NCBI GenBank assembly: GCA_003167555.1
Contig: PMSN01000014.1
Coordinates: forward strand, 1 to 64,000
DNA from: Spartobacteria bacterium
Lineage (GTDB): Bacteria; Verrucomicrobiota; Verrucomicrobiia; Chthoniobacterales; UBA10450
Reading direction: 5' to 3'
DNA: 64,000 nt
Made by a program: the position numbers and the translations under genes. Positions 35,099 to 54,763 of the stretch are shown piece after piece (the first letter of the stretch is position 1; each line of letters starts with the position of its first letter). The notes under the pieces are model-generated. The model made no database searches. It was not told where the DNA came from and worked only from the letters and a program-made list of their open reading frames with translations.

Positions 35099-35776
35099 AT
35101 GGCTAAGTCGTTCTATCTTCTCATCGCGGTGGCAACTGCTTTCGGCCTCTATGACTCACGGGCGGCCGATGAAGAGAAGCCTCATGGCCGGGTTTGCATT
35201 TCCGTGGTCGACGGCCCATCGGGAAAAGAGGAAGCGTTCAAGGCGTCCACGACCTACAGACCGGGCACAACGGTGCGCGCACATGTCGATGCGAGTAACA
35301 AATGCACGGTCCTCATTGCCGCGCTGACGAAGGACGGCAAGCTCGCCAACGGTTGGCGGCCGCAACTATCCGATGTGCCGGAGGAATTCGAAGACATTGA
35401 GCTGCCGAAAGCGCCCGTAACTTGGGATTGGGCAGCGGCCAGTGCGCCTTTCGATCTTTACGTCTTGTTCCTGCCTTCCAGTTCGAAAGAAGTCGAGGAA
35501 GCAAAGAAGCTAGTCGCAGCGATGCAGGCGCCGAAAATGGATGAGCGTCTCCTGGCCATGCAGACCAACAAACTGCGTGAGCTGATCGGCCGCATCACGA
35601 GCGAGAAGGAGAAAGTGAATCAGGCGCCAATGACCGATCCGGAAGTCGGCGGCGTTTTTCGCGGAGCAGGCGACGCGGCCTTTCCCTGGCGCCAGTTCGC
35701 GCAAAGCATCAATTTCGGTGACGATCGGCCGGGCGTCCTGGTTCTTTCCAGCGCAGGCGCAAAGAATTCTCCGTGA
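35099..35776 (+). CDS. Secreted protein of unknown function (possible DUF4384-like)
   Basis: 225 residues with an N-terminal signal peptide (KSFYLLIAVATAFGLYDSRA). The mature part begins with GRVCISVVDGPSGKEEAF and TYRPGTTVRAHVDASNKCTV, a beta-rich pattern reminiscent of DUF4384, then a helical region. ATG 35099 is chosen because it begins the signal peptide; the open frame upstream belongs to the kinase relic. Its stop overlaps the CHASE2-cyclase start (GTGATG), so the two are coupled. Probably acts at or outside the inner membrane with the CHASE2 sensor. Confidence 0.7.
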   Translation: MAKSFYLLIAVATAFGLYDSRAADEEKPHGRVCISVVDGPSGKEEAFKASTTYRPGTTVRAHVDASNKCTVLIAALTKDGKLANGWRPQLSDVPEEFEDIELPKAPVTWDWAAASAPFDLYVLFLPSSSKEVEEAKKLVAAMQAPKMDERLLAMQTNKLRELIGRITSEKEKVNQAPMTDPEVGGVFRGAGDAAFPWRQFAQSINFGDDRPGVLVLSSAGAKNSP

Positions 35777-37881: not shown

Positions 37882-37914
37882 CGGGTTGGATGGTCAAACA
37901 GAGGTGCAATTGTC

Positions 37915-40900
37915 ATGAAGGACAACGTCTTCACCATCACCATGAGGGTATTGATGGCTTCTGCCTTGGCTTTGTTCGCCGTAAGCCTTCCCTCCGGCGC
38001 TTGGGGCGAAGAGACGAAACCCGCGACGACTGCAACGCTTAAACCCGACCGTGCCCAACTTGAAGCGCAGTTCGCCAAGGCGAATGCCGATCGCACGGCG
38101 GCGAAGGAGAAGACTAAGGAGCGCGCCGACGCTGCCCGGAGCGCGATGCAGATCGCGTCGGATATAGCCTGGATGGCTTTCGATGCCGGGAAATTCGAGG
38201 AAGCTGCGAACTGGTTCGCCAAGAGCGCGGAACTTAAGGAGGACAGCCATGTCAACGCGCGTGGTTACTGGGAAGAAGATATTCGCATCCACGTCGCCGA
38301 GACAGAAGCGAAATTTGATCGCCAGATCAAGGACGCTCAAGCCAAGTTACCGACCGCGGAGGAATCCAAGAAGGCAACGCTCCGTCTGCTCATCGATACC
38401 TTGGAGAAGAACCGTCATACGACTCGCTACAACGACATCTCAATGCTGGAGAATGTGGCGCGGGAAAACAACGATACCGCCAGACTCCTCAAGTATGCGG
38501 AACAAGAGCTCGAGATCCGCCGCCTGGAGCTGGTTTACCTGGAGAAATCGAGCGCACCCAAGAAGGAAGCGGATTTGAAGAAGGTGCAGATCGCCACGTC
38601 GATGGAACGGGTGGCGGGCGCACAGGCAGACCTCGCCATGTTCGACCAGGCGGAGAAGAATTACCTCGAAGCGCTGGGGATCCGCCGCGCCCTACCCGAG
38701 GACCTGGCGGAACGGAAGCTGGAGGATGCCTTGAGCGCCCTCGGGCGAATGTACGTCCATAACGTCGGGGACCTTGTTAAGGCGCGCGACTACTACCAAC
38801 AGGCTCTGGCCGTTACTGAGGCCAGCGCCGCGTTGCGGCAGAAGGCGTTGGGCGAAGATTACTGGACGGCGGAACAGAAGGCGCAGATGTCGAAGGAGGA
38901 TCTGGCCAAGCACGAGGAAAGCCTCGCCCAGAATCGAGACATGACAGTAGCGCTCGATGCCCTCACGCAGGCGACGGTTCTGGCAAATCTCGGTGGTATT
39001 ATCGAAGAAGCGGGTGACTTGAAGAGCGCGCTCTCTTACTACGAGCGAGCGCTCAAGCTCGGCGATGCACTTCCACCGGGCGGGTACATCCATATCTTCG
39101 ACCTTTTCCGGGCCCGAATACGTGCGCGCGTCCTGGGCGATATCGCCTACCTTCATGCGGAGAGCGGCGAAGTGGATTTGGCGCTGAAAGAATTGAGCGA
39201 AGTGATTGCGATCAAGCGCAGCATTGGTGATGACGAGTGGACGGCACAATCGCTCCTCCAGGCCGCGGACCTTTCGCATAACAAAGGAGACACAGAGGCT
39301 GCCAGGCACAGCGTCGAACAAGCGCGCCAAATCTTCGCCGCGGCCCACAAACTAAATAGCGTGGTTTCCGCCACTGGCTTCCTGGCTGTGATCGCGCGAG
39401 ATGAGGGCAAACTGGACGAGGCCGCGCGTTTCGCGGAAGAGGCACTCGTGCTCGCACGCAAGACGGGCAACCTCGGAGCTATTTCCAGTTCGGCGCGAGC
39501 CTTTGCCTCGATCCGTGTGAAGCAAAACAAGCTCGCTGAAGCTAAGACGTTGATTGAAGAAGCGAAGGCGGCCGATGCAAAAACGAACTCTGTCGGCGAT
39601 CGTATCAGCACTCTCGGAATCGCCGGCGAGATTCTGGAAGCACAGGGGGACAACGCAAAGGCACTGGAGGCTTATCAGGAAGCGGTGAAGCTGGTCGAAA
39701 GCGTGCGCTCGACCGCCGCATCGGAAGCAGCGTTTGCCGACGTGAAGCGGAACTATCGCCCGTACGAACGCATCGTGCGGATCTTGATCAAGCTGAATCG
39801 ACCGGAGGACGCGTTTGATTACCTCAATCGCGCGAAGTCGAAGAAGCTCCAGGATTCGCTCCGCCTTTCCAGCATGAAGAGTGAAGACAAGGGCGTTCAG
39901 ACATTGCTGGAAAAGGCTAGTGGCGAAGAGAACAAGCTAAAGGCGGCGACCGCACAACGCGAGAGCGAGCAAGCCAAGCCGAAGGATCAGCAGGACAAAG
40001 CGAAGATCGAGAGTCTTAGCCGGGTAGTAGCTACTACTCAGGCAGAATGTTTTCGGCTCAACGAGCAGATCAAGGCCTCTAATCCGCACTGGGAAAAATT
40101 CATGACCCTCAATCCGGAGTCGCTCAAGAAGGCGCAAAAGCGCATTCCGCCAGAAGTGATGCTCATCCAATACGCGCCACTGGGCGAGGAGCTTTATGTC
40201 TTTCTCGTTACCAGGACGAGCATGAAGATCCTCATCGCGCCCGGCAAGCCGGCTGATCTCTTTAAGAAAATCCTCGCGGTCCGAAAGCAGATTACAACGG
40301 GTGAAACAGAAGGGCCGTTGACCAAGAACCTGACAGGACTCTACGATACGCTCATCGCGCCGGTTGAAGCCGACATTGCCCCTGTCAAGGTGATCGCTTT
40401 CATCCCGAACGGGCTCCTTTACTACCTTCCGATGCAGGCGCTGGCGAAGAAGAATGCCAGCGGCGAGATAAGATACCTTATCGAGGACAAACAGATCGTT
40501 TACTTAACCGCCGCTGACGTAATGAATGCGGTGCAGCCACCCGACGAGGAGAAGGCGCGCGACGGCATGCTGGCATTTGGCAATCCGACCGGGGCAAATC
40601 TGCCCTCGGCCGAGGAGGAAGTGAAAGGCATCGCCCAAGTCTTTCCGTCGACGGAAGTCTTATTTGGGCCGGATGTGACAAAGAAAGCGCTGGGAGCTGA
40701 GGAAAAGCTCAGCAAACGGATAGTTCACTTTGCTACCCACGGCATTCTCAATGCCTCGGCGCCGCTGGAGAGCTACATCCAATTAGCCGCTTCTGACTCT
40801 CCTGATTTGTCGCATCTTACCTTGGGGGAGATAGGGGGCCTTCCCTTTAACAAAGTGGACCTGGTTACGTTGTCGGCCTGCGAGACGGCAGTAGGAAACA

Positions 40901-41157
40901 AGGAACCTGATGGCGGCGAGGTCACTACTTTGGCCCATGCCTTTTCGAGCGCGGGAGCGACGACCGTCTTGGCGAGCTTGTGGAGCGTAGGCGACGAGAG
41001 CACCAAGGAGTTCATGGTGGAGTTTTACCGTCAGCTTGCATCCGGTGCGTCGAAAGCCGCGGCACTGCAAAGCGCCCAGATCAAGCTGCTGAAGAGCGCC
41101 AAGTTTTCGCGTCCACTTTATTGGGCGCCTTTTGTTCTCATGGGTGACTGGCGCTAG
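37915..41157 (+). CDS. Exported TPR-CHAT caspase-like protease
   Basis: 1,080 residues. A signal peptide (VLMASALALFAVSLPSGAWG) is followed by about 600 residues of TPR-like helical repeats, a coiled coil around 660-720, and a C-terminal CHAT domain. The caspase-type dyad is intact: His942 in VHFATHG and Cys989 in LSACETA, with LASLWSVGDEST and PLYWAPFVLMGDW. CHAT proteases are the effectors of several bacterial regulated-death pathways; here export suggests an envelope location. Follows the CHASE2 cyclase in the same operon. Confidence 0.92.
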   Translation: MKDNVFTITMRVLMASALALFAVSLPSGAWGEETKPATTATLKPDRAQLEAQFAKANADRTAAKEKTKERADAARSAMQIASDIAWMAFDAGKFEEAANWFAKSAELKEDSHVNARGYWEEDIRIHVAETEAKFDRQIKDAQAKLPTAEESKKATLRLLIDTLEKNRHTTRYNDISMLENVARENNDTARLLKYAEQELEIRRLELVYLEKSSAPKKEADLKKVQIATSMERVAGAQADLAMFDQAEKNYLEALGIRRALPEDLAERKLEDALSALGRMYVHNVGDLVKARDYYQQALAVTEASAALRQKALGEDYWTAEQKAQMSKEDLAKHEESLAQNRDMTVALDALTQATVLANLGGIIEEAGDLKSALSYYERALKLGDALPPGGYIHIFDLFRARIRARVLGDIAYLHAESGEVDLALKELSEVIAIKRSIGDDEWTAQSLLQAADLSHNKGDTEAARHSVEQARQIFAAAHKLNSVVSATGFLAVIARDEGKLDEAARFAEEALVLARKTGNLGAISSSARAFASIRVKQNKLAEAKTLIEEAKAADAKTNSVGDRISTLGIAGEILEAQGDNAKALEAYQEAVKLVESVRSTAASEAAFADVKRNYRPYERIVRILIKLNRPEDAFDYLNRAKSKKLQDSLRLSSMKSEDKGVQTLLEKASGEENKLKAATAQRESEQAKPKDQQDKAKIESLSRVVATTQAECFRLNEQIKASNPHWEKFMTLNPESLKKAQKRIPPEVMLIQYAPLGEELYVFLVTRTSMKILIAPGKPADLFKKILAVRKQITTGETEGPLTKNLTGLYDTLIAPVEADIAPVKVIAFIPNGLLYYLPMQALAKKNASGEIRYLIEDKQIVYLTAADVMNAVQPPDEEKARDGMLAFGNPTGANLPSAEEEVKGIAQVFPSTEVLFGPDVTKKALGAEEKLSKRIVHFATHGILNASAPLESYIQLAASDSPDLSHLTLGEIGGLPFNKVDLVTLSACETAVGNKEPDGGEVTTLAHAFSSAGATTVLASLWSVGDESTKEFMVEFYRQLASGASKAAALQSAQIKLLKSAKFSRPLYWAPFVLMGDWR

Positions 41158-41243: not shown

Positions 41244-43169
41244 ATGACCCACGCCAGCGAATTAGAAAAGGAAGCCAGCCAGGAACCATCGCCGGATAGA
41301 ACCGCGCGGGACTTGCCCTCCGGCTACAGGTATTGGGCATTCATCAGCTACAGCCATCGCGATGAGCAATCGGCGAAATGGCTGCACGAGGGAATCGAGA
41401 CCTATCGAATCCCGCGTGCGCTGGTGGGCAAGCCATTGCAGGGCGGTTCGACGCCCCGTCGAATGTTCCCGCTCTTTCGGGACCGCGACGAGTTACCAGG
41501 CGCCGCGGAGTTGGGAGCGCAGATTCGCCAGGCCCTCGAACAATCGCTTTACCTCATCGTCATCTGCTCTCCGCGAGCCGCTGTTTCCCCGTGGGTGAGC
41601 CAGGAGGTGCAGGCTTTCAAGGCGCTGGGAAGGGAAGATCGTGTCCTCTGTCTGATCATCGATGGCGAACCCAATGCCGATCTAAGTCTCGGAGAACTGG
41701 AATGCTTTCCTCTCGCTGTGCGCTTCAAGGTGAACGCAGCGGGAGAGCTCAAGAGCGAACCGACCGAGCCGATCGCGGCCGATGCGCGCACGGGAAAGGA
41801 CGGCAAGGCGAACGCGAGACTCAAACTTCTCGCTGGCATGCTGCGAGTAGGCTTTGACCAACTGCACCAGCGTGAGCGCCAGCGTGCCTTGCGCCGGCGC
41901 CTTCGCTTGTCGCTTGCGAGCCTGGCCTTGGGGATATTGATGTTGGCCGGATACATGGCGCTGGCAGATCTGGGAGTGGGCGTTCCGGGCGGCGAACGTA
42001 TTCGGAGAATATTCGATGGCTTCGATTCGTCCTTCTTTCGCCCCATCGCGAACGATGCGACCATCCGTCGCGCGGCACGCGACACGCGCTATGCTACCTC
42101 CGCCGTTTTGCTCGATGTCTGGCGAAAAGGTAATCGGTTTGTCTTTGAGAGCCCAAGTCGACGAGGCCACCCGCAAACTCTCCAGGTATGGAATGTCTCT
42201 CAGGCCCTCAGTGGTTTATTACGCTCACCCGATCTGACACCGGAACAATTGCACGGACTTATCACAGAACTCAACGTGACCTTCGCTCCGGACCTCCTGA
42301 TTGAAGCCGGTGAAAAGAAATACGGGTTCCTCTCCACTAGCGGCCTTTACACTCAGGCCGAAGCTACACTGTGGAATGTCACCGCCATCTCGATGGCATT
42401 AGGCCGCCCGGGACTGGTCGGAGGTGAAGAACGCAAGCGATTGGAGCAACGGCTGGTCGAGGTGCAGAGCCATCTTGCACTCTACTGGGATCCCGTGACT
42501 GGAGGATGGAACACCTACCCCAACCAACTTACGCCTGCCTATCACGAGACTTATACTGCTGCGCTGGCGTTGCTGACCCTTCTGGAGGTGCGCGAGGCCA
42601 ACCTCCCATGGGTAGGTGACATTGTTCTTCGGGACCGGATGCTCAATAGGACAGCGGAGTGGCTTATCAGCCAGTGGAATCCCGCGGGTGATTCCCCTGG
42701 CTGGCGCGGCGCGGTCGATGATGAGGCGCCTGTTTCCGATGGCCTCACAATTCAAATTTATAGTGAACTGCTTCGTGCCGAGGCTGAATGTGGCCTGGTC
42801 ATCCCGGCGCCGATACTCGATGCCATTCCACGCCATTTGCTGCGCCTGATCGGTCGTTCCCTAGACTCTGCGCCGAGCGTGGGCCGGTTTAGCCGTGCCT
42901 TCATCAATCACGAAGGCCAGTCATTCGACATCAATCCGTCAGTTAATTGTCTCTGGCACCCGTGGGCGATCTACTCGGTTCGGTGCTGGCTAAACCGTCT
43001 AGATACTCATCCGGGGTCCCGCGAGCAACGAACACAAATGCGGCGGGTTTTCAGCTACCTGATCGTCAACCTTGGGGTCGAACTTAAAGCAAAGATCGAC
43101 CACGACTCGGTCCCATCATTCATGGCGGCCGAAACGATGTACGCCTATTCCAGGATTTCGTTTCCGTGA
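41244..43169 (+). CDS. TIR domain - membrane helix - large C-terminal domain protein
   Basis: 641 residues. A TIR-like domain at about 28-165 (WAFISYSHRDEQSAKWLHE, FRDRDELPG, LIVICSPRAAVSPWVSQEVQ; the Glu in WVSQEVQ is the candidate NADase residue). A basic stretch and one membrane helix (about 228-250, SLALGILMLAGYMALA) follow. The outer 390 residues are helical with spaced TAALALLTLLE-like repeats, resembling alpha/alpha-toroid proteins, but I cannot name the family. Last gene of the + strand operon, 86 bp after TPR-CHAT and converging on the - strand conflict genes. The topology puts TIR in the cytoplasm and the C-terminal domain outside. Confidence 0.8.
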   Translation: MTHASELEKEASQEPSPDRTARDLPSGYRYWAFISYSHRDEQSAKWLHEGIETYRIPRALVGKPLQGGSTPRRMFPLFRDRDELPGAAELGAQIRQALEQSLYLIVICSPRAAVSPWVSQEVQAFKALGREDRVLCLIIDGEPNADLSLGELECFPLAVRFKVNAAGELKSEPTEPIAADARTGKDGKANARLKLLAGMLRVGFDQLHQRERQRALRRRLRLSLASLALGILMLAGYMALADLGVGVPGGERIRRIFDGFDSSFFRPIANDATIRRAARDTRYATSAVLLDVWRKGNRFVFESPSRRGHPQTLQVWNVSQALSGLLRSPDLTPEQLHGLITELNVTFAPDLLIEAGEKKYGFLSTSGLYTQAEATLWNVTAISMALGRPGLVGGEERKRLEQRLVEVQSHLALYWDPVTGGWNTYPNQLTPAYHETYTAALALLTLLEVREANLPWVGDIVLRDRMLNRTAEWLISQWNPAGDSPGWRGAVDDEAPVSDGLTIQIYSELLRAEAECGLVIPAPILDAIPRHLLRLIGRSLDSAPSVGRFSRAFINHEGQSFDINPSVNCLWHPWAIYSVRCWLNRLDTHPGSREQRTQMRRVFSYLIVNLGVELKAKIDHDSVPSFMAAETMYAYSRISFP

Positions 43170-43822: not shown

Positions 43823-44740
43823 CTACGGTCTGGACACCGGTCGAGTAGGAGTGCGGACAGGCTCAGCGCCCAGGCCGCCACCAACGCCCAGGTAAATGCT
43901 GGGGGGATTGTCGTCACCACTTTGCACGATGGCTGCGGTAAGGCCGAAGCGCTTTCCTCGCCATTGGACGCCTGCTGCCCAGGGAGTAAATTCGTCCTTC
44001 CTTTTCGCGAACTGCGTGACCTCTCCTATCAGGTAAAAATTATGTGGCAGCTGGACCTCGACGCCGCCGTAGAACCGGTTCGTGTTTCTATCTGGCGCCT
44101 GGAGCCACGATTCACGAAATCCTCCCTGGAAGGTCACTGTTTTTAAACATCCTTTCTCATCTATCGGCACGGTCTTTGAGACAGCGAGATAAACGTTCGA
44201 AGAATCGAAGTTGTCCGTTCCCATCTTGGAGTAAGCGCCCAGGCTTATTTCCGGCCACCATTCGCGATCGCGGACTAACCGGATCCTGGCCATCGGTCCG
44301 CCCGTGCCATAAGAACCTTCCGGAACTTCGCCACCGCTGGTCCTGAAGTTAAACATGTTGGCAACGAAACCTAGCTCCAGCCAGTCGCGCACGCCGTAGC
44401 TGAAATACATCGCGTGTCCGAGGATGTCCGTGTCCTGGTTGGTAAGAACGAGGCAGTAGCCAAAACCGAATGTGCCTTGTGCCAGGGTGGCGGAAGTCGG
44501 GTTGAGAAACATGCCCGATGGGCCTTCCAGGGTAATCATTCCGCGCGATTCCCGCGCCGCAACTGGAACTTCCACGATGGGTCCTTCCTTGGAATCAGAA
44601 AGGACGTCCGAACCGGCCAGACTCGCGCTTGCGATGAGCGCGACGATCAATGCGGTTGCAAAGCCAGACTTGATCAAGCCGAGTCGCGGCGGGGCACCGC
44701 GTCGGTTGATCGGAAGAGGCGTCAAGCGAAATGAAAGCAT
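43823..44740 (-). CDS. Putative outer-membrane beta-barrel protein (YjbH-like start)
   Basis: 305 residues with a long N-terminal region ending in a signal peptide (ATALIVALIASASLAGS). The mature protein opens with LEGPSGMFLNPTSATLAQGT, a pattern seen in YjbH/exopolysaccharide-type barrels, and then shows alternating amphipathic strands (FGFGYCLVL, MYFSYGVRDWLELGFVANMF, FYGGVEVQLPHNFYLIGEV). It lies 94 bp after the patatin gene on the same strand, so it may be the last gene of that operon or independent. Role unknown. Confidence 0.7.
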   Translation of the reverse strand: MLSFRLTPLPINRRGAPPRLGLIKSGFATALIVALIASASLAGSDVLSDSKEGPIVEVPVAARESRGMITLEGPSGMFLNPTSATLAQGTFGFGYCLVLTNQDTDILGHAMYFSYGVRDWLELGFVANMFNFRTSGGEVPEGSYGTGGPMARIRLVRDREWWPEISLGAYSKMGTDNFDSSNVYLAVSKTVPIDEKGCLKTVTFQGGFRESWLQAPDRNTNRFYGGVEVQLPHNFYLIGEVTQFAKRKDEFTPWAAGVQWRGKRFGLTAAIVQSGDDNPPSIYLGVGGGLGAEPVRTPTRPVSRP

Positions 44741-44834: not shown

Positions 44835-45914
44835 CTACTGCAAGTGCTCCGCTCGCACGTGCTCTTCAGCGTAACGCGCGCCTAGTTCACGAAGGTAGGG
44901 GATGAGCTCGAGGTTGTCGAGCGTGATGCCGCTCTTACTCGTTCGTTTGGCTGAACTCAATTCATCCTGGGTGAAGAGATGATCGTAACGGACATAACTG
45001 AATTGCTTCCGATCCACATCGGCTGGCTCTCCGTGCAAATCTCCCAGTTCGGAATCGATAGGAGCGCCTTCTTTGCAGTAGCCGATCGTTCTGCACATGA
45101 TGTCTTGTTGCAAGCTGATCGAATCCATTAGCGCCATGGGGACAGAGCGCGCGGTGAAGAGCAGGTTCATCTGCTCACCTCGCAGCAGGCCGGCGCCCGT
45201 CCGCTCGCGTCCAGTGCCGATGGAAACGAGAAGCATGTTGTTGACGCCAGTGGCCCAGTTGAGCTTGTAGCAAGGCAACGTGGCCATGGAAAATAACAGG
45301 AACGCGGGGTTGTTATAGGGCGTGATGGCACCGTCGACAAAGACCTGCCGGATGCCACCCAGCACGATTGTCTCGGGCGGAAAGTAAACCGGCGCGGCGG
45401 TGCTGGCCCGGACGAGCTGCCAAAGGGGAAGGTGCAAGTTACAATTCGCTCGAGCAAGATCGTTGAATTTTGCCGCCGGATTATTCGAGACGGGCCACGG
45501 CGAGCCGGTCGTGTGATTGCGCATGACAAGAGTAAGGAGGGTGCGCAACTTCTTGGTGCTAAGTAACGCGGGGACCTTGCCTTCGCCATCTTCGGAGAAG
45601 ACGACCTTGAACATGTTTGTGATCGCCTCCGCCTCGAACTTGTTCCAGAAGCGCCGGTAGAGAGGCGCCGGGCGAAAGATTTCGACGGCGCGGGTAGTAT
45701 AAAGCTCCTGCACCTCGGCCACAGTCATGCCCCAGGAAAGACAAGTCGCGATGATCGCGCCGGTGCTGGTACCGGCGATATAATCGAAGTAATCGGCGAG
45801 AACGAGATCCGGCTGGCTGCGTTGCTGACGCAAGTGCGCTTCGATTCGCGCAAGGATTTCGAGCGAGAATACTCCGCGAATTCCTCCCCCATCGAGCGCA
45901 AGCAGTCTCTTCAT
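44835..45914 (-). CDS. Patatin-like phospholipase (CapV-type architecture)
   Basis: 359 residues, patatin fold from the first residue. Oxyanion loop GGGIRG (9-14), nucleophile Ser50 in GTSTG, and Asp194 in VDGA complete the dyad, so it should be an active lipid acyl hydrolase. No signal peptide: cytoplasmic, acting on the inner membrane. The length and order resemble CBASS effector CapV and other defence patatins. It is 13 bp behind the SLOG-4TM gene, the last of four tightly packed genes. No CD-NTase is present, so a different trigger is expected. Confidence 0.9.
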   Translation of the reverse strand: MKRLLALDGGGIRGVFSLEILARIEAHLRQQRSQPDLVLADYFDYIAGTSTGAIIATCLSWGMTVAEVQELYTTRAVEIFRPAPLYRRFWNKFEAEAITNMFKVVFSEDGEGKVPALLSTKKLRTLLTLVMRNHTTGSPWPVSNNPAAKFNDLARANCNLHLPLWQLVRASTAAPVYFPPETIVLGGIRQVFVDGAITPYNNPAFLLFSMATLPCYKLNWATGVNNMLLVSIGTGRERTGAGLLRGEQMNLLFTARSVPMALMDSISLQQDIMCRTIGYCKEGAPIDSELGDLHGEPADVDRKQFSYVRYDHLFTQDELSSAKRTSKSGITLDNLELIPYLRELGARYAEEHVRAEHLQ

Positions 45915-45927
45915 CGTTCTCGTCCGT

Positions 45928-47409
45928 TTATTGGAATCGCGGGTTCCGGAAAAGCACAAACCATTCGAGAAATTCCTGCGCGAAAAGTTTCTCCGCCTTT
46001 TCCACCGCGTTCTGCAAGGTCACAATGTTTTCGGATTGCACAATTTGATTCCGTGCCGCGGTCAGTCGTTTTGTCATTTCGTGGGAGCGCGCCAGTTGCC
46101 GATGCAAGTCGAAGATTGAGATTAACGACAAGGCACAGCCGGCGGCAAGTGGTAATGCAAACGGCAGAAAGGAGGCGACAACTCGACCTAGCTCAGGATT
46201 GAAGCGATTTACTCCAACCGTCGCGACGAAGATGCCTCGCGTGATTGCCAGCCCGGAGAAGAGCCAGAACGCCGGTGTGAGAATCAAAAGCATTCTGCGC
46301 AGCGCCCGGCTCCGTTTGCTGAAATAATTTATCTGCGAATCGATTCGGGTCCGCAGATAATGTTCCTTCCAGGCGAGCAAATCGCTTGCCTGCGGCGGGG
46401 GCGAACTCGAGCGCAGGACACGTAAAGATTTGGCCAGCCGCGCGAAGCCTTGCAGCTCCCGAAACCAGAAGGGCGCCACTACGACCGGCAGATCCCAAGT
46501 AGCCAACACGGAGCGGCACATCTCCGCACCCACTCGGCAGCGCATCCACGTGTGATGCGCGTCCTTGCGTTTCACGTAGGCGATCGCCAGGGTCGCCAAG
46601 GCGACCAGCAGGAAGATGAGCAAGTCGAGCAGACCCGAATTCAAGCCCAGGCCAATCGCGGCGGCGGTCAGGGCGACAGCGACGGTATTCATGAGCAGCG
46701 ACGCGGCGACCCATCGCCGAAAATTAGGAGCGATCCGCGTCGCCACGGCATCTACCTTTTGGAAGAAGCGCTCGATATGTTGCTTTGGACTCTCGCCATC
46801 CATCGAAGGCGCTTGTTTACTCCTTAAGTGATTCAGGAAGCTAAACTCCGGATCCATGAACGTGTCGTCGCGAAACGATTCGCGCTCCACCTTGAGCTGG
46901 TCGGGGTGAATCAGGATGATTGGCTTATTCTGCATTCGCGCATACGCCACGACTTCCGCTGTTCCGCCAAGGCCGCGCGCCGGCTCGCCATCCCACACCG
47001 TCATCAAAACATCGGCCTCGTCCACGGTGCGCAGCCCGCAGCGGAGATAAGCCGCGGGCCGATCGTCTGAGGTGCCAGAGATCTCAACGTCCATGGCCCG
47101 GCTTAACAACTCAGTGACGTGCGACCATTGGCTCTCGCTAAAGTCATTTCGGAATTCAGCGGGCGAAAACGGGAGCGCCGCCACCCACGGTATCTTCAGC
47201 GACTGGCAAGCTTCGGCAAAAAGAGTGTCGGCTCCGATCGCGGCCGAGGCATATCCGACGATCTCGCCCGGCACTTCCCTGCGCAGCACTTCGAGTTCTT
47301 CGCGAATGACTCTGCCCACAGCTACAGGGTTCTTCAAATCTCTATGACCGGTGAAGGCAACTACCCAAAACGGCGACAGCTGGGCGTCATCGCCGTTCGA
47401 GTGTTTCAT
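45928..47409 (-). CDS. SLOG/LOG-like domain fused to a four-helix membrane domain (SLATT/DUF4231-like)
   Basis: 493 residues. Residues 14-170 form a Rossmann-like SLOG domain: FTGHRDLKNP, ASAAIGADTLFAEAC, WDGEPARGLGGTAEVVAYA and PIILIHPD. SLOG domains bind nucleotide-derived ligands, for example cyclic ADP-ribose products in Thoeris. Four membrane helices follow in two pairs (about 233-254, 260-278, 372-395, 410-432) separated by a helical region with WMRCRVGAEMCRS, similar to SLATT/DUF4231 proteins proposed to form pores. Starts inside the stop of the nSTAND gene (ATGA overlap). Best reading: a ligand-gated membrane effector; this is inferred from domain order. Confidence 0.75.
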   Translation of the reverse strand: MKHSNGDDAQLSPFWVVAFTGHRDLKNPVAVGRVIREELEVLRREVPGEIVGYASAAIGADTLFAEACQSLKIPWVAALPFSPAEFRNDFSESQWSHVTELLSRAMDVEISGTSDDRPAAYLRCGLRTVDEADVLMTVWDGEPARGLGGTAEVVAYARMQNKPIILIHPDQLKVERESFRDDTFMDPEFSFLNHLRSKQAPSMDGESPKQHIERFFQKVDAVATRIAPNFRRWVAASLLMNTVAVALTAAAIGLGLNSGLLDLLIFLLVALATLAIAYVKRKDAHHTWMRCRVGAEMCRSVLATWDLPVVVAPFWFRELQGFARLAKSLRVLRSSSPPPQASDLLAWKEHYLRTRIDSQINYFSKRSRALRRMLLILTPAFWLFSGLAITRGIFVATVGVNRFNPELGRVVASFLPFALPLAAGCALSLISIFDLHRQLARSHEMTKRLTAARNQIVQSENIVTLQNAVEKAEKLFAQEFLEWFVLFRNPRFQ

Positions 47410-50021
47410 AGCTGGCCGCGCAGGTCTGGTTTGTTGTGTTCGCGCGCCTTACCGATTGCATCATCCAGCAAAACCAGCACTGGATCGATCTGAGCGTTGT
47501 AAAGTCCGGAGCGCCGAATCAACTCGGCGTCGCGCTTTACCGTCTCAAGGGAGCCGGCAGCTCCTTCCTGCGCCAGGAATTGAATCATCTCCTGTAGCTG
47601 CGGTAAAGCGCTCGATTCATTGCGAAGGGTAGCCAGCAGCGGCGAATAGGTCCGGCGCGAAAGCGAATCGCTGCCCCACGAAAGCCTGGATGCTTCTTCC
47701 CAAAGCTTGGAAGCTTCTTTCGAGTTACCCTGAAGGGCCCGCCCGATGCCCAGGCGAAAAGCCGAAAAGGCGTAAGGATCCTTTTCGTATGCTTCTTCCA
47801 AGTGTCGAACAGCTTCTCCGAGAAGGGCTGGGTCCGGCAGCTTTTCCTTTTCCAGAAGCATGTAAGCGAGATTCATGTGGGTGAGAGAATCGAGCCGCTT
47901 CATGTTTGAGCCGACGAGACTTTTGAAGAACTCAATCGCCCGAGGATCGTTGCGGTCCTGCATGTAGATCGCGGTCGCGAGCCGAAAGCGCGCGATGACT
48001 GCACCCGGGTTAGCTCCAATGGCGCGGTCAAATTCCTGCATGGCGAGTCCGTAGTGACCCAGGCTCAGGTAAACTGTTCCTAACCCAGCGTGCGCGCCAT
48101 AGCTGGGTGTGTTTCGTTGCCGGGCGGCCTCCAGCGCTTTTACATATTGGTCCATGGCCAGATGAAACCGGCCCTGTTCGAGTTGAATGTTGCCGTAACC
48201 TATGTGCGGGTCCGGCGATTCCGGATCGGTCGCCTCGGCCTGTTTATAAAGCGCTTCGGCCTTGGGAAAATCCGGGTCCGCTCCGAGGGCGTAAACGTCC
48301 CCAAGGCCAACATAAGCCTGGGCTAGCTTGGCCTGGCCTGCGTAATGTTGGGCGGCCGTCGCATTTTTCATCTTTTCGATTTCGACTGCCTTGTCGTAGG
48401 CCTTGATCGCGTCCGATAGGATAGGTGTGTTTCGTGCATCGCCTGCGCCATAAGCCTGGCGGACAAGGACGTCTCCTATCCCAAACCAGGCTTCCGCTTC
48501 GGAAGGCTTGAGTTGCGCTGCCTCTTTGAACTTCTCCAACGCCGGCTGATACTCTCCTGCTTCAAGCATGAAGTTACCTATATCGACCAGCTCGCGAAAC
48601 TTGATTTCCTGTCGGGTGCGATAGGCATAAGTCACCAAGGCCGTGCAACCGAGGAGCAACACCGCCACAACCGTCAGCGCAATTCTTCGCTGCCGGCGCA
48701 GCCGTTGCTGTTGGCGGCGAGCGAGGCGCGCGTTTGCCTCGCGCTCGCGACGGTTAACACGACTAGCCGAAGCTACCGCGGTGAGAACATCGTGAGTTAG
48801 CTCCACTCGCCGAACGCCGCCTCTTTCCTCCACGACAAGAAGGCGTCGTTCTACCAGGTCGAGAATCGCATTCGAGGCGGCGTCGCTCGGCAAACCGCCG
48901 CGAACAAGCTCCGCTTCCGCAGTGTCGAGAGTAACAGCCTGGCGAAAGCCGGACTCGGATAGCAGCCGGTCTTCGACAAACTCGCGCACTGCGGCGGGAT
49001 GATTCGCGAAGGTATCGAAATAGAACTTTTCGAGAATGTGCCCGCTACATCCTTCGAGTTGCTCAGCGGTGATTGTTTCTTCGCCGGCCGCGAGACGCTG
49101 GGCGTTTAGCTCGGCGCACATAAGACTGAGGAGGGGCGGCACGGCATCGATTTCACTGAGTGGCACGTCGGAGCGGACTCCCGCGATAAAACGCACGATA
49201 GCAGCCGCGATTTCTCCGGAGACAATCGGTGGCTTATCGAGACGCAGACTGCCAGGCTCCGTCACGGCTTGCACCGCCTGGACGCCGCTCAAAGGACGCA
49301 GCTCCATTCTGTTATCCATCAAGGCGGGGAGTTGCCAGCGCCACCGTTCCAAGAGGTGAAGAAAATCCTCGCGCAATGATAGCAGCACCTTTGCCGGATG
49401 AGCATGATAGTCGACCCTCTCGGCCAGCTGATCGTTGCTTTCAATTTCGGCGCGGACCTGCGACGGCATCCGATTTTCGACAATCGCCGCCAGAGTCTCA
49501 CGAAAATCTTCAGCCATTTGCCGGCGCGCTTCGCCGAGTGTGAAAATCTCCTCGAACTGATCGAAAATGAAGACCGGGCGAACTACTGGCGCGCCATCCT
49601 CATTGATGAATCCGAACTCCGCGTCGTGGAGAAGCAACCAAAGGCTCGTCGCTCCGGCGCACGCTGCGGAGAGATCGTCGCGTCCGGCGAGTTGCAGCTC
49701 CGCGCGGAGGGCTTCGACCATTTGCTGGCCGGGCGATGCCGCGTCCTCTTCGTAACGCAAACGAATCCGCACCGGGAGAAGGCCGGACGCGCGCAGTTTG
49801 GGAATAAGGCCAGCCTGAATAAGGGACGTTTTCCCCAGGCCCGATTGCCCGAACAAAACCGTGAGCGGCTTGTGCAGCACGCGCTCGAAAAAATCTTGAA
49901 GCTCTGCGTTTCGGCCGAAGAAATAACCTTGCGTCTCCTCGGTGAAGGAGCGCAGACCCAGCCACGGTGACTCCGGATCCGCGCCGAACACACGGGCCGT
50001 GATCCTATCGGCCGAGCTCAT
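47406..50021 (-). CDS. nSTAND-type NTPase with membrane helix and TPR repeats
   Basis: 871 residues. The N-terminal segment SPWLGLRSFTEETQGYFFGR is the typical opening of nSTAND1 ATPases; Walker A is GQSGLGKT (58-65) and Walker B VFIFDQFEEIF (Asp154). A winged-helix-like region with ELTHDVLTAV leads to a basic stretch, one membrane helix (about 445-465) and TPR repeats filling the rest. STAND proteins are signal-sensing switches that oligomerise on NTP binding; the TPRs would be the sensor or scaffold. It overlaps the SIR2-TIR gene upstream and the SLOG gene downstream by 4 bp each, so the three are made together. Confidence 0.92.
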   Translation of the reverse strand: MSSADRITARVFGADPESPWLGLRSFTEETQGYFFGRNAELQDFFERVLHKPLTVLFGQSGLGKTSLIQAGLIPKLRASGLLPVRIRLRYEEDAASPGQQMVEALRAELQLAGRDDLSAACAGATSLWLLLHDAEFGFINEDGAPVVRPVFIFDQFEEIFTLGEARRQMAEDFRETLAAIVENRMPSQVRAEIESNDQLAERVDYHAHPAKVLLSLREDFLHLLERWRWQLPALMDNRMELRPLSGVQAVQAVTEPGSLRLDKPPIVSGEIAAAIVRFIAGVRSDVPLSEIDAVPPLLSLMCAELNAQRLAAGEETITAEQLEGCSGHILEKFYFDTFANHPAAVREFVEDRLLSESGFRQAVTLDTAEAELVRGGLPSDAASNAILDLVERRLLVVEERGGVRRVELTHDVLTAVASASRVNRREREANARLARRQQQRLRRQRRIALTVVAVLLLGCTALVTYAYRTRQEIKFRELVDIGNFMLEAGEYQPALEKFKEAAQLKPSEAEAWFGIGDVLVRQAYGAGDARNTPILSDAIKAYDKAVEIEKMKNATAAQHYAGQAKLAQAYVGLGDVYALGADPDFPKAEALYKQAEATDPESPDPHIGYGNIQLEQGRFHLAMDQYVKALEAARQRNTPSYGAHAGLGTVYLSLGHYGLAMQEFDRAIGANPGAVIARFRLATAIYMQDRNDPRAIEFFKSLVGSNMKRLDSLTHMNLAYMLLEKEKLPDPALLGEAVRHLEEAYEKDPYAFSAFRLGIGRALQGNSKEASKLWEEASRLSWGSDSLSRRTYSPLLATLRNESSALPQLQEMIQFLAQEGAAGSLETVKRDAELIRRSGLYNAQIDPVLVLLDDAIGKAREHNKPDLRGQL

Positions 50022-51385
50022 TGGTCCAGAGCGGACAGCCGCTTTTGCTGCAACGCGTGCAGATACTTTCCAAAGTCTTCGGTGACTTCGCCGCTTGCCA
50101 GGCGAGTAGCTTGGACGCGTCGAAAAGTGCGGGGCTCCCGCTGGGTGGAGAGAGGCGAATCATCGATCACGACTGGAATGTAATACTCTTCGCCTTCGGA
50201 AAACATGGCCTGCCGTTCCGAAGCCCAATTGCGTTCCTGATGAAAATAGCCGGACGGCGCGCCTTCCGTTGTGCGAGAAATCACGGAGAGAAACAGAGAA
50301 CACCGGCCCTTCACTTCATCTTGCAAATGATTATGCCAGTTTCCACCTGGTTTGAGTCGGTCGCGGTCATACCACACCGTACAGCCGTGCCGCTCCAAGC
50401 CCGCCTTTAATCTCCGCGCCGCATCCTCATCTTCCCGGGCATAGCTCAGGAAGATCGCACCCTTCGGCATCTCCAGCTCGGGCGGGAGCACGAACTCGCT
50501 CGGCGTGCCTTCCGCCGGTGGATGCTTTTCGCGCCAACGACTGGCCAGTTCCGCGACGAACTCCGCCGGATCGGCCGCGACCACCTGGATGTTTCGGCTT
50601 ACTCCGCCGAAAAAGAGCACCATGCTTTCGGGGACAGTTCCGGCTGATCCTACCGCCAAGACTTCCGTGTTGGACCTGGATTCGGAAAGACGCGACTGCT
50701 TGGTGATGCGCAGGAAGAAACGGACCAGCCAGTCCGAGAAGTTCAAGCCGAGAATAAGCAAGCCATGTTCCTTGAGATCGCGCGCCAGTTTCTCCATCCC
50801 TGGCAGGTGTTGGTGGAGTGCGCAGACAAATTCGAGTGCATCTTCCTCCCACACCACATACTCCGGGCTCGGCGAAACACAGCCCAGAAGATGGTAGACG
50901 GTGGCGCGGCTCAGCTCGATTTTGCGCGCGGGAAGATCCTTGTCCGCGGCTTCAGGGAAAAAAGAAAGCCGCTGGGTGAGAGCTTGTCCGCCATAGCGTT
51001 CCGCGTTGAGCGCGTTTTCGAGTAATGGATCAAAGGTCGTCGTTAAGAAGAGATTAAAGGCGGAGATCGAAGCCAGCTCACGCAAAGTCGTGCCGGGTGT
51101 CGGGCATTCGTCGCGAAGCACGCGGTGCAGTCGAGTGTAAATTACATTCCGCGCGCCACCGTTAAGGAGGTGACGGCAGACAACGTCGTTGAGCGTCGGG
51201 TTTTCGGAAAGTTGGCCGGGAGGCACTTGAAGTTTTTCGGCCAGGCGTTTTGCCAGCCATTGGTAAAGATTGCTGTCATCATCGCCAAAGGTGACGATCG
51301 ATTCACCGATCACGGGGATAACCTTCCCCTCTTCGATGAAAATCAGAAGGTCTTCCCAGAAATCGGAATCGGTCGGTATAGCCAC
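50018..51385 (-). CDS. SIR2-like and TIR domain fusion protein
   Basis: 455 residues. Residues 1-270 are a SIR2_2-like Rossmann domain: VIPVIGESIV (nucleotide loop), FLTTTFDPLLENAL, VYHLLGCVSPSPEYVVWEED and LLILGLNFSDWLVRFFL. Two positions that are Asn and His in active SIR2 NADases (TTNYD, LHG) appear as Thr and Leu here, though a nearby His165 remains. Residues 308-440 are a TIR domain (GAIFLSYAREDEDAA, GCTVWYDRDRLKPGGNW, YFHQERNWASER with candidate catalytic Glu384 or Glu390). The fusion pairs two NAD-acting folds. First gene of the four-gene cassette; a 130-bp gap before it may contain its promoter. Confidence 0.88.
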   Translation of the reverse strand: MAIPTDSDFWEDLLIFIEEGKVIPVIGESIVTFGDDDSNLYQWLAKRLAEKLQVPPGQLSENPTLNDVVCRHLLNGGARNVIYTRLHRVLRDECPTPGTTLRELASISAFNLFLTTTFDPLLENALNAERYGGQALTQRLSFFPEAADKDLPARKIELSRATVYHLLGCVSPSPEYVVWEEDALEFVCALHQHLPGMEKLARDLKEHGLLILGLNFSDWLVRFFLRITKQSRLSESRSNTEVLAVGSAGTVPESMVLFFGGVSRNIQVVAADPAEFVAELASRWREKHPPAEGTPSEFVLPPELEMPKGAIFLSYAREDEDAARRLKAGLERHGCTVWYDRDRLKPGGNWHNHLQDEVKGRCSLFLSVISRTTEGAPSGYFHQERNWASERQAMFSEGEEYYIPVVIDDSPLSTQREPRTFRRVQATRLASGEVTEDFGKYLHALQQKRLSALDQ

Positions 51386-51515: not shown

Positions 51516-51806
51516 CTAGTGGGCGGAGAGGAACCTGATCAGGAACAGGATCGTGATTCCCAGAAGCGCTGTTCCTGCGTAACCGATGACGAGACCAACG
51601 ACGGCCACGCATTTTCCCAATGATCCGCTCGTGTTCTTTCTTACTTCCACCAGGGCCATGTGCCCGCAGATGATTGAGGGCACGGAAGTAAGTCCGAAGG
51701 TCAGCAGCGAAAAGATGCCCAGCGTAAAGGTCCAGATGGGAAGAGCAGATAGCTCCTCCTCGGGCGACTCAAACGCTCCGGGCATTGCGGCTGAAGATTC
51801 CATCAT
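51516..51806 (-). CDS. DUF4190-type small membrane protein
   Basis: About 96 residues from the double Met at 51806. Two membrane helices flank SIICGHMALVEVRKNTSGSLG, the typical DUF4190 pattern in which a GHxAL.ri motif sits between helices. Function unknown; such proteins are common accessory membrane proteins. The codon at 51869 would overlap the preceding gene by 19 bp. Confidence 0.75.
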   Translation of the reverse strand: MMESSAAMPGAFESPEEELSALPIWTFTLGIFSLLTFGLTSVPSIICGHMALVEVRKNTSGSLGKCVAVVGLVIGYAGTALLGITILFLIRFLSAH

Positions 51807-51850
51807 AGTGGGACTATGACGGATAACAGCAAAGCCTTTGCAACCGATTG

Positions 51851-53050
51851 TTAGTGGTCGTGATGACAATCGCCATTCTCACATTCGTGCTCGTGCTCGT
51901 GGTCGTGCTCGCAGTGATCGTCGTGGTGGTGATGATGGGTCGACCAGGATGGAAACGGATCCGGGAACTCGGCCCAGCCGTGTTCGCCGGCGGTCATCTC
52001 CGAGTCATTCAACAAGCAGGCATCAAGCTCTGCGGTAAGTTTCCCTGCATCGAGGTTGATTCCCATGAAAGCAATTGCCTGGCGGCGGTCGCCGAAAGGT
52101 TCCCGCCATTCCTTTCTCGTGCGCTGGGGCATCTCGGATTGGCGGGCATGCTCGTCACGAGCGGCCCACCATTCTCCGGCGGTCGCATAATGAGATTCCG
52201 AACCCGCCAGGTTAAGGCCGCCGACCAAGTCCATTCGTGTCGCGAGCCAAAAGAAACCTTTTACGCGGAAGACACCAGGGAAACCGCCTTGCAGCAAATT
52301 CCAAAACCTCTCCGGATGGAATGGCTTTCGGGCACGATAGGCGAACGCCGTTACGTTATCCTGTCGACTTGGGCTAGCTTGCTCCGAGTCGATTAGCTTT
52401 CGCCATCCTGCGCCATCCAAAGCCGCGGCGAAATCAAAGGAGGCGCCGGCGTCGAGCAACTTCTTCGGCGTCTCCTGGGAGAGCTGCGAGACTTGGGCGC
52501 GCGGATTGAGTGTGAGTGCGATTGCCCGGGCTAGCGTGAAACTTGGATCATCGCTCCTGCCGTCGAGCACCACATTGTCGACAAACTCAAGTTGCTCGGC
52601 GATGAGGCAGGGAGAATCAACACTATCGACCTCACGCCTTTGGACGAGGGCCTCGAGCAGAGTAGCCGGTTCGATAGCTAGCACAGTCGAAGTAAGGTGG
52701 GCAACGTCGGTCAAACGGATGGCAGCGTTTTCCTGCGGCACAAAGAGCGAAGCAAATGCGAACGCGGGCGTCTCAGGATCGCACTCGATGAAAAGATGAT
52801 CGACTCCGCCTTGATTACTAATTGCGATGATCTGTTCTACTATTTGCGCGGGGTCGGGCAGATGTCCCTCGTGTGACGATGATAGCTGCTGGACGATGAA
52901 TCTGTTTCTCTCAGTTTTTGCGCTGGTCAACAACCCCAGCCGGCGCTTCGTCTCAGTCGCTCCGACCTTTTGTAACAACGCAGACACAGAAGGCCCGGAC
53001 ACAATCGATACGGACAACAACCGCGAACCCACCGCCCGGGAGCTGCTCAT
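51851..53050 (-). CDS. COG0523/CobW-family pseudo-GTPase with His-rich tail
   Basis: 399 residues built like a G3E metallochaperone (CobW/ZNG1 type) but without its GTP site. The usual GxxGxGKTT is replaced by VSGPSVSALLQKV and NKxD by DGRSD, while LFIECDPETPAFA and CLIAEQLEFVDNVVL keep the family scaffold. The CobW_C domain is well preserved (FAYRARKPFHPERFW, FPGVFRVKGFFWLATR, WREPFGDRRQAIAFMGINLD). The last 30 residues are almost all His, Asp, Glu and Cys, a metal-binding tail. Likely binds zinc or another metal without GTP-driven transfer. AGGAAC precedes the ATG; 17 bp behind the subtilisin gene. Confidence 0.82.
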   Translation of the reverse strand: MSSSRAVGSRLLSVSIVSGPSVSALLQKVGATETKRRLGLLTSAKTERNRFIVQQLSSSHEGHLPDPAQIVEQIIAISNQGGVDHLFIECDPETPAFAFASLFVPQENAAIRLTDVAHLTSTVLAIEPATLLEALVQRREVDSVDSPCLIAEQLEFVDNVVLDGRSDDPSFTLARAIALTLNPRAQVSQLSQETPKKLLDAGASFDFAAALDGAGWRKLIDSEQASPSRQDNVTAFAYRARKPFHPERFWNLLQGGFPGVFRVKGFFWLATRMDLVGGLNLAGSESHYATAGEWWAARDEHARQSEMPQRTRKEWREPFGDRRQAIAFMGINLDAGKLTAELDACLLNDSEMTAGEHGWAEFPDPFPSWSTHHHHHDDHCEHDHEHEHECENGDCHHDH

Positions 53051-53067
53051 CGAGTATTAGTTCCTAA

Positions 53068-53922
53068 CTAGCTGGAGGGTGGGGGACGGCCCACCCGGGC
53101 GACAGGAGCAGCGGGGGAAGTAATATTCGGCGCCGTGAGATCGCTCCGCCACGGAAGGGCCAGGCGATGCAGGATGGATTTTGCCTCCAAGGGGGCGAGC
53201 CCTGGCATTTCCGAGATGAGTCGCGCGAGTAGCGCGCTCATGATAGGCGCGGCAAAGCTGCTACCCGTGACTTCCTTAGTGGAGTGGTGGTTCCACGGGA
53301 GAGTTACGTCTACGCCACGTGCGGCAAACTCAACAAGGTGCCCCGGCTTGTAGAAGAAGGTATGGTCTTCATCGAGGCGCGTCATATTGACGGTCACCAC
53401 GCTGGGGAAGTATCCCGGCCATTCCGGCGTGGTGAAGTCATAATTATTGCAGGCGGAAACAAGGTGGATGCCTTTGAGATAAGCTTCGTCGATCCACTCC
53501 TTGTATTGAAAGATATGCTCGGCCAGTCCGCAGCCAAAGCTACAGTTAAGGATATGATAATTTTTGTCGATTGCCTGCCGGACACCTTCGCGAATGATCA
53601 CGGTGCGAGAGCCCAGGTTTTCACCGAGCACGCGAAAACTGCCTAACTCGGCATCCGGCGCGATCCGCCGAATCACTCCGGCCACCGCCGTGGCATGACC
53701 ATAGATATCGGTGCCATCGCCAGGTCTTACCTCAATCTGCACGCCGGCGTCCACGACATGCAGATCGTCCAGCAGCTTGATGCCTGCCAAGGCCGGGTGA
53801 TCGATCTCTATTCCAGAATCGATCACGGCGATGCGCACGCCTTTGCCCGTTCCCTTTTCCAACGCGCGACGGGCTTCGTCCAGCCGGAAAGGACTCGAGT
53901 TATTGCCTAGCGTCGGTTCCAT
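53068..53922 (-). CDS. Cytoplasmic subtilisin-like serine protease (S8)
   Basis: 284 residues, complete triad: Asp35 (AVIDSGIEIDHP), His76 (IYGHATAVAGVI) and Ser222 (GSSFAAPIMSAL), with Asn159/160 near SACNNYDF as oxyanion residue. No signal peptide or long propeptide, so it probably acts in the cytoplasm or is exported by an unusual route. Starts inside the end of the GAF gene (16-bp overlap), so protease and GAF protein are made together. The C-terminus is proline- and alanine-rich. Subtilases without signal peptides occur in peptide-maturation and conflict loci; the substrate is unknown. Confidence 0.9.
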   Translation of the reverse strand: MEPTLGNNSSPFRLDEARRALEKGTGKGVRIAVIDSGIEIDHPALAGIKLLDDLHVVDAGVQIEVRPGDGTDIYGHATAVAGVIRRIAPDAELGSFRVLGENLGSRTVIIREGVRQAIDKNYHILNCSFGCGLAEHIFQYKEWIDEAYLKGIHLVSACNNYDFTTPEWPGYFPSVVTVNMTRLDEDHTFFYKPGHLVEFAARGVDVTLPWNHHSTKEVTGSSFAAPIMSALLARLISEMPGLAPLEAKSILHRLALPWRSDLTAPNITSPAAPVARVGRPPPSS

Positions 53923-54533
53923 CCTACGGCAGTTCCGAGCATGCGATAGTCGATCAGGTCTCTGATTACAGCCGAAATCGTTTGAATGGCATTGAGCTCA
54001 TGCGGCCCAAACCCCGCTGGAGTCGTCCCCGTGGCGGCAGCTTCTCCATCGTGCACCATCACGTCCAGCAATTGCACACAGGAAATAACTCCGCGCACCT
54101 GATTAAGAAAATAAAACGGCACAGCGATCATGGCATAAGTGGTCTTGTGCAGCTTCTTGTCGAGCGTCGCGCTGTGCTTCGCGTTCTTGTAGACCTGGTT
54201 TTCGACGAAGGCATTCTCGCTCGCCACCACGAGGCTGACGATGCCTTTGCCAAGCGGCTGTTTGAATCCAACGATGCTGTCGGTGTTAGGACCGCTGTTA
54301 TACGCCACCACCAGATGCTTCTTCTCTTCATCCAGCAGCCAGATGCTTCCTTCATCGGCTGCGATGCGGTCAAAGGTTTCCTTCAACAGCTTTCTCGGCA
54401 TTTCGTCACAGATGCTGAGGAAATTCGAGGGTGTGACGGCCTCGCCGAGTTTGGCGAGATGCTCCTGGAGCGCGGGTCGCAGCGGGACGAAGCGTGGCTC
54501 GGGGAGGAAGTTGGCGCGAGTGGTCGTTTTCAT
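53907..54533 (-). CDS. GAF-domain protein
   Basis: 208 residues from ATG 54533, which overlaps the preceding stop (ATGA). A single GAF fold at about 45-195: ADEGSIWLLDEEKKHLVV, GKGIVSLVVASENAFVENQ, YAMIAVPFYFLNQVRGVISC. GAF domains bind cyclic nucleotides or other small ligands; no output domain is attached. It lies between the anti-sigma-like gene and the subtilisin gene and could be the ligand sensor of this operon, perhaps for the cyclic nucleotide made by the CHASE2 cyclase; that link is speculative. Confidence 0.82.
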   Translation of the reverse strand: MKTTTRANFLPEPRFVPLRPALQEHLAKLGEAVTPSNFLSICDEMPRKLLKETFDRIAADEGSIWLLDEEKKHLVVAYNSGPNTDSIVGFKQPLGKGIVSLVVASENAFVENQVYKNAKHSATLDKKLHKTTYAMIAVPFYFLNQVRGVISCVQLLDVMVHDGEAAATGTTPAGFGPHELNAIQTISAVIRDLIDYRMLGTAVGWNRR

Positions 54534-54763
54534 TCCTGTGGTTGTCTCAGAGCCAAGGTCTCCCGGGCCAGGGCCGGGAGCAAGTAGGGTTGCTCTTGCA
54601 GCATCTTCTTCACCTGAGCGCGTTCTTCTTCCGTGCAACTTCCGGCAGCGAACTTCACCAGCTTTTCCCGGAATTCGGGCGAGACCGTGGCGGCCGCGCG
54701 ACCGGCCACTTCGGGCCGATCGCTTTCGAGGAACTCCAGGAGAATTTGGAAATCATCCTTCAC
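54530..54763 (-). CDS. Small anti-sigma-like acidic protein
   Basis: 77 residues. The segment EKLVKFAAGSCTEEERAQVKKMLQEQP resembles the N-terminal part of anti-sigma factors of the FecR/RsgI-linked kind, but there is no zinc-finger CxxC or membrane helix. Placed between an ECF sigma gene and the GAF gene, with a 4-bp overlap to the latter. Anti-sigma role is a context-based guess. Confidence 0.6.
   Translation of the reverse strand: MKDDFQILLEFLESDRPEVAGRAAATVSPEFREKLVKFAAGSCTEEERAQVKKMLQEQPYLLPALARETLALRQPQE

Follow-up and report, generated by a model that had tools for sequence, protein, structure and literature searches.

A constant SIR2-like–TIR and nSTAND1 gene pair with exchangeable SLOG-SLATT and patatin candidate effectors in a verrucomicrobial cassette

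The four-gene cassette of a Spartobacteria bacterium (contig PMSN01000014.1) described here is organized around a constant core of two genes, which encode a SIR2-like–TIR protein and an nSTAND1 NTPase, and SLOG-SLATT and patatin proteins are exchangeable candidate membrane effectors around that core. Taking the evidence together, we assign a probability of roughly 0.4 to the complete chain of events proposed below, in which envelope-triggered TIR signalling would act through membrane effectors in a cell-suicide or growth-arrest immune cassette.

Within the window, by which we mean the whole 64,000-nucleotide stretch analysed, all four genes lie on the minus strand. The first encodes the 455-residue SIR2-like and TIR protein (50018-51385, GTG start; identified by Pfam, a fold model and a residue census) and is followed by the genes for the 871-residue nSTAND1 NTPase-TM-TPR protein (47406-50021; Pfam, a hydropathy scan for transmembrane helices and pairing counts), a 493-residue protein composed of a SLOG domain and two SLATT units (45928-47409; Pfam, NCBIfam, a predicted model, a fold search and hydropathy) and a 359-residue patatin-like phospholipase (44835-45914; Pfam, motifs and an NCBIfam score below the cut-off), for which we took the ATG-start gene, whereas the ORF as listed extends upstream to a TTG (45959). 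Overlaps of 4 bp join the first gene to the second at 50018-50021 (SIR2-TIR/nSTAND1) and the second to the third at 47406-47409 (nSTAND1/SLOG-SLATT), and 13 bp (45915-45927) separate the SLOG-SLATT and patatin genes, so that the ORF coordinates bear out the compact arrangement reported in an earlier note on this DNA. The domain identities proposed there (SIR2-TIR, nSTAND-TPR, SLOG with a four-helix membrane domain, and patatin) are upheld by Pfam, NCBIfam and PADLOC together with the SLOG fold: SIR2_2, TIR_2, nSTAND1, SLATT_1 and Patatin all match, and SLOG is recognized by fold only, as no Pfam SLOG model matches the 45928-47409 protein. Three features come in addition to that description, namely a transmembrane helix in the STAND protein, an apparently lost active site in SIR2 and a co-directional gene (43823-44740) behind the patatin gene. 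The numbers of promoter-like sites (2 observed, 2.3 in shuffles) and terminator-like sites (13 observed, 9.4 ± 3.4 in shuffles) were also recorded, and a PHROGs search returned weak matches only, with function unknown or GTP-binding labels. The minus strand at 51516-54638, on the upstream side of the cassette, carries genes for DUF4190, CobW_C, subtilase (S8) and GAF proteins; those for subtilase and GAF overlap.

The SIR2-TIR protein matches the Pfam families TIR_2 (2.8e-17) and SIR2_2 (1e-10). In the window protein, hhalign places T117 and L167 at the positions of the SIR2 Asn and His, which we presume to be catalytic from the DSR2 N133A/H171A mutant (as given in the accessible part of PMC10973363) and from our own motif matching. 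Both residues are missing from the SIR2-TIR homologues (0/31 for Asn and 0/31 for His), compared with 25/29 and 25/29 in other SIR2_2 proteins (control loci L196-L224, 22 of which, scored first, gave 20/22 each for Asn and His). The underlying profile-profile alignment set 30 family members against 22 other Verrucomicrobiota SIR2_2 proteins, with a probability of 98.4%; across these 30 members the Asn of the TTNYD motif is replaced by T, G, A or S and the His of HG by L, F, M or V, and the Paraburkholderia copy agrees with them in having T and F. The four control exceptions (L202, L203, L204 and L206) are related SIR2_2 proteins that share one motif, with W and I/L instead of the canonical Asn/His. 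Since D119, G168, G27 and G213 are invariant (30/30), the SIR2 fold appears to have been kept, and the SIR2 half of a model of moderate quality (pLDDT 69.5) matches SPARSA, KomBC, ThsA and Avs5 with Z scores of 16-19. Because Asn and His are both absent, this half is unlikely to be an NADase; as judged from its residues, the active site has probably been lost and the domain is apparently dead. We therefore rejected a functioning SIR2 NADase, and on the same residues the earlier proposal of a rearranged Thoeris is not supported if a working SIR2 is meant.

The TIR half is apparently active. Its Glu (E384) is retained in all 31 homologues and aligns with a Glu of the SPARTA chain 8j8h_B (E 1.4e-6), which counts as residue 77 through a 34-residue offset; both this offset and the identity of 8j8h_B with the published protein are our own inference. 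E77A is described as the catalytic mutant of TIR-APAZ in the accessible part of PMC10474274. Sequence searches of the PDB gave matches for TIR and none for SIR2 or SLOG. TIR domains can also be adaptors, and as the SIR2 half already appears inactive, the TIR half could be imagined as a scaffold and no enzyme, with a STAND oligomer activating the effectors by protein contact (direct recruitment of patatin and SLATT is conceivable) and SLOG reading some other nucleotide; the Glu kept in every homologue argues against such an arrangement, which we consider quite improbable.

The SIR2-TIR and nSTAND1 pair is the constant core of the cassette: every one of the 35 scored SIR2-TIR homologues is followed directly downstream, on the same strand and across a gap no larger than about 460 bp, by an nSTAND1 gene. 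These comprise a first set of 25 (24 assigned by rule and L069 settled by tblastn; the nSTAND match of L181 is short and weak), L191-L194 (where the gaps reach about 460 bp), L126, L130, L134, L136, a plasmid of Paraburkholderia caribensis (L225) on which the two genes overlap by 4 bp, and the window itself. Five duplicate contigs (L029, L032, L036, L042 and L043) were removed before counting, and two loci were left out of the pair counts: L195, in which the match stops before the TIR and the nSTAND gene lies about 5 kb away on the opposite strand, and L180, in which the 117 N-terminal residues of SIR2 run directly into an nSTAND stretch, as a fused or decayed copy. The genome of the window, a 4.2-Mb assembly in which the window is contig C3, holds a second pair on another contig (C25, L169).

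The nSTAND1 protein of the window (Pfam 1e-32, 114.7 bits against a cut-off of 27.1, plus TPRs; Walker A GQSGLGKT) has a single transmembrane helix by hydropathy, at residues 447-465, and the helix lies 372-455 residues past Walker A in the window protein and 28 of 29 homologues (L166 has the segment with a Walker A unmatched by the pattern; L181 has neither). In 23 of the 29 proteins that carry the helix, the 12 residues before it contain more lysine and arginine than those after it, the other six being ties, and this excess suggests a cytoplasmic NTPase and periplasmic repeats. The repeats themselves differ between partners, being TPR in the window, L163 and L169, WD40 in L076 and WD40 plus FGE in L194, and none were recognized in L164, L171 and L225. 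A membrane-spanning STAND as something special to this cassette was rejected, as the helix is general in nSTAND1 (present in all six scorable loci of eight unrelated controls; L230 and L234 contained no ORF that could be scored). The helix bears on the mechanism even though it is common in nSTAND1, and nSTAND1 is likely the sensor. Behind the SIR2-TIR/nSTAND(WD40-FGE) pair of L194 lies a third gene (L194:6686-9025) with a RyR domain, a TPR-S and a cyclase-like domain, whose product weakly matches the SLOG of the window.

The third protein is a candidate ligand-gated membrane effector. Its SLOG domain occupies about residues 13-185, and the two SLATT units provide four hydrophobic helices. SLATT_1 is above the cut-off in Pfam (2.6e-6, 27.9 bits against 26.3) and NCBIfam (44.5 bits against 41), and the SLATT_3 half is under it (Pfam 1.6e-4, 22.4 bits against 26.3). 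The predicted SLOG model (pLDDT 86.3) matches YpsA (2nx2) with a Z score of 19.2 over 152 residues at 2.2 Å, with ShosA (Z 15.0), DprA (14.8) and LOG also close, and on this model the domain belongs to the SLOG superfamily, with a Rossmannoid fold of the YpsA/DprA/LOG type. The SLOG of ThsA and the N-terminal region of TRPM2 match further down (Z about 8); the long TRPM alignments (rmsd 15-34 Å) are meaningless, the comparable portion being SLOG only.

A profile scan started from an alignment retrieved 41 named SLOG-SLATT loci (a single-protein query retrieved none), 39 of them titled as Verrucomicrobiota or groups within it and two, L050 and L061, as other phyla (one Steroidobacteraceae, one Proteobacteria). 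A TIR gene lies within 2 kb of 28 of the 50 distinct SLOG-SLATT loci. TIR or patatin occurs within 10 kb of 36 loci and neither within 10 kb of the other 14; the TIR counts use BLAST at E < 1e-9 and miss L050 (among the 14), where a TIR is found by Pfam. Given a background of 71 TIR hits across about 81 Mb (16 genomes), a TIR would fall by chance in a 5.5-kb neighbourhood in about 0.5% of cases. The genes of L060, L062, L068 and L072 look solitary, as BLAST of the fetched stretch returned neither TIR nor patatin. In Opitutae-type loci (L086, L051, L192 and L193) TIR genes, some of them TIR-TPR, stand in tandem arrays; in L086, seven lie within 10 kb of SLOG-SLATT.

The co-occurrence of all four genes, on which the earlier note had made its proposal depend, stands in part: the exact order was seen only in the window across 387 genomes of the phylum, 213 of the order and the 41 named loci, and elsewhere the genes are mostly apart, but the same genes recur, permuted, in a congener. 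The view of a conflict-type cassette is supported, and its genes are linked in this second species too. In the congener (G508, locus L110) the order is SLOG-patatin-SIR2TIR-nSTAND followed by the outer-membrane-like gene, with identities to the window of 51, 73, 87, 82 and 76%, respectively. The SLOG protein has 177 residues there and no SLATT remnant was found in the 19.5-kb stretch. An 8xMP octameric membrane protein gene (L110:11160-11696) adjoins this cassette on the opposite strand, and is possibly a replacement membrane effector for the SLATT-less SLOG. Another genome, G511 (L163), has SIR2-TIR (37% identity), nSTAND (52%) and the outer-membrane-like gene (70%); patatin is missing there, and the sole SLOG match, a weak one (E 3.2e-4), lies about 7 kb off. 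SIR2-TIR was matched in only 7 of the 387 sampled phylum genomes, the match in G083 lacking the TIR part, and a plasmid search yielded one SIR2-TIR record and four partial SLOG hits.

Nearly as probable as the single chain is the rival reading that the window holds two distinct systems that merely adjoin, a SIR2-TIR/nSTAND pair whose TIR kills by depleting NAD and an independent SLOG/patatin module, with no signal passing between them. From the SIR2-TIR searches, a SLOG match exceeding 100 bits accompanies three of 22 SIR2-TIR/nSTAND loci (the window, which is included in the count, L110 and L051 of G060), so that a strong SLOG match is lacking in the stretches fetched for the other 19; one of these, L194, has a weak one, and the remaining joint loci came from the SLOG search. 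Of the order's 12 strong patatin loci outside the window, 11 have no SLOG, nSTAND or SIR2-TIR partner, some on short contigs, and L110 is the only one with partners. Patatin also stands beside seven of the 50 SLOG-SLATT loci with no SIR2-TIR (L037-L041, L080 and L083); in L038 and L039 these patatin-SLOG pairs adjoin DUF4062-like nSTAND1 genes, and nSTAND1 is present in L040 too, which is an independent link of nSTAND1 with the effector pair. Against separate systems, the first three genes of the window overlap, the modules are still adjacent in the congener despite the changed order, SLOG-SLATT lies within 2.6 kb of SIR2-TIR in the pair in nine of 50 loci even though so few genomes carry SIR2-TIR at all, and in L076 only about 13 bp separate the two genes on one strand. 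The weaker linkage seen from the SIR2-TIR and patatin sides identifies the pair as the constant core and SLOG-SLATT and patatin as optional, and the SLOG (3/22) and patatin (11/12) counts led us to lower the reading as one signalling chain from about 0.45 to 0.4 and to raise our estimate for two systems slightly.

The gene at 43823-44740 (minus strand) is a probable fifth member of the cassette. Its 305-residue product has a hydrophobic, signal-like segment at the N-terminus and a weak YjbH match below the cut-off, and we call it outer-membrane-like. It was matched in three of 213 genomes of the order, all of one genus (3/8 of its genomes), and in each it lies directly downstream of the cassette, with gaps of 56 bp in G508, 16 bp in G511 and 94 bp in the window. 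None of eight neighbouring window genes tested was found beside the G508 cassette, so simple synteny does not account for the co-location in that genome; other neighbours are, however, common to the window and G511, and some of the linkage may for that reason reflect position. One such group is the trio at 34754-41157 (plus strand) of an unknown protein, a CHASE2-cyclase and a CHAT-TPR gene, which also lies behind the outer-membrane-like gene of G511. Between this trio and the cassette, a second TIR gene (41244-43169, plus strand) encodes a TIR_2/ThsB_TIR domain, a hydrophobic segment near residues 222-247 and about 400 C-terminal residues that have no Pfam match; its homologues occur near SLOG-SLATT in L077, L081, L073 and L173.

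An outer-membrane-like gene behind the cassette, adjoined in G511 by CHASE2-cyclase and CHAT-TPR genes, might instead indicate an envelope-stress or developmental regulator with no part in immunity. The patchy distribution, the exchange of modules and the lethal-type effector domains make this improbable, as does the alignment between the window genome (G000) and G511, in which the neighbouring outer-membrane-like gene is far better conserved than SIR2-TIR (70% against 37%), and this difference fits fast change or replacement of SIR2-TIR.

As the earlier note had supposed, the set is assigned to no named system by PADLOC (2023) and NCBIfam, which give partial domain matches only. Thoeris has TIR, SIR2 and SLOG folds in common with the cassette, and the SIR2 half resembles ThsA (8btp; Z 17.2, 254 residues, 4.3 Å), but ThsA holds SIR2 and SLOG in one protein, whereas here they are on separate ORFs, the TIR is fused to a SIR2 that has apparently lost its active site, SLOG is fused to SLATT, and a STAND gene and a patatin are extra. 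We rejected membership of Thoeris for lack of the SIR2-SLOG fusion and of the SIR2 Asn/His. Avs5 (AVAST type 5) likewise couples a SIR2-type domain to a STAND NTPase (fold match of the SIR2 half to 9jap; Z 16.3, 257 residues, 5.1 Å), but in one polypeptide, while the cassette has separate genes, as do all 35 scored homologues, and differs further in its apparently dead SIR2, the added TIR and an nSTAND1-type STAND with a transmembrane helix; membership was rejected on the separation of SIR2 and STAND. The patatin (Pfam 1.2e-23; motifs GGGIRG and GTSTGA) resembles the phospholipases of CBASS with a CapV effector (PADLOC 1.4e-38), yet falls below the NCBIfam CBASS_lipase equivalog cut-off (106.6 against 200 bits), and no CD-NTase (SMODS) gene was found among the 20 window proteins scanned with Pfam, so CBASS was rejected as well.

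The accessible parts of the Burroughs/Aravind work on conflict systems (PMC7159879, PMC9503650) describe SLATT as a predicted nucleotide-responsive pore that adjoins TIR genes, and that of PMC8195603 mentions TIR effectors and the nSTAND1 clade. Because the SLATT pore and the TIR-SLATT neighbourhoods are thus already published predictions, the cassette is best read as a variant of known TIR/STAND/SLOG-SLATT conflict systems rather than a new kind. In contrast to the predicted TIR/SLATT and SLOG-SLATT systems as outlined in those parts, it combines SIR2-TIR with nSTAND, SLOG-2×SLATT with patatin, and an outer-membrane-like gene. Titles and abstract openings in the literature searched (Burroughs 2015 and 2020 and preprints lie outside this coverage) contained no description of a SIR2-TIR/nSTAND pair.

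In the single signalling chain that we favour, nSTAND1-TM-TPR would be an inner-membrane sensor, its NTPase in the cytoplasm and its TPR repeats probably in the periplasm. A trigger detected at the envelope, perhaps a phage, would switch or oligomerize the STAND protein and so activate its constant partner SIR2-TIR, in which the SIR2-like half may serve as an oligomerization or nucleotide-binding scaffold while the TIR half consumes NAD to yield ADP-ribose or a cyclic derivative. SLOG would bind this product and open the fused four-helix SLATT membrane domain, and the patatin would degrade membrane lipid on the same or a parallel signal, the presumed outcome being death or arrest of the cell. 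A more far-reaching version, which we regard as unlikely, would be a trans-envelope receptor: the STAND protein would use its TPRs and the dedicated outer-membrane-like protein to read an event in the periplasm or at the outer membrane and would drive the TIR on its dead SIR2 scaffold, and the product would open the SLOG-gated four-helix channel, a minimal bacterial analogue of the ADP-ribose-gated TRPM2.

The analysis defines a conserved two-gene core, in which an apparently inactive SIR2 is fused to an apparently active TIR and accompanied by a membrane-spanning STAND. If the proposed chain is true, the question becomes why every scored copy retains a dead SIR2, and a STAND sensor placed across the inner membrane could act early in infection.
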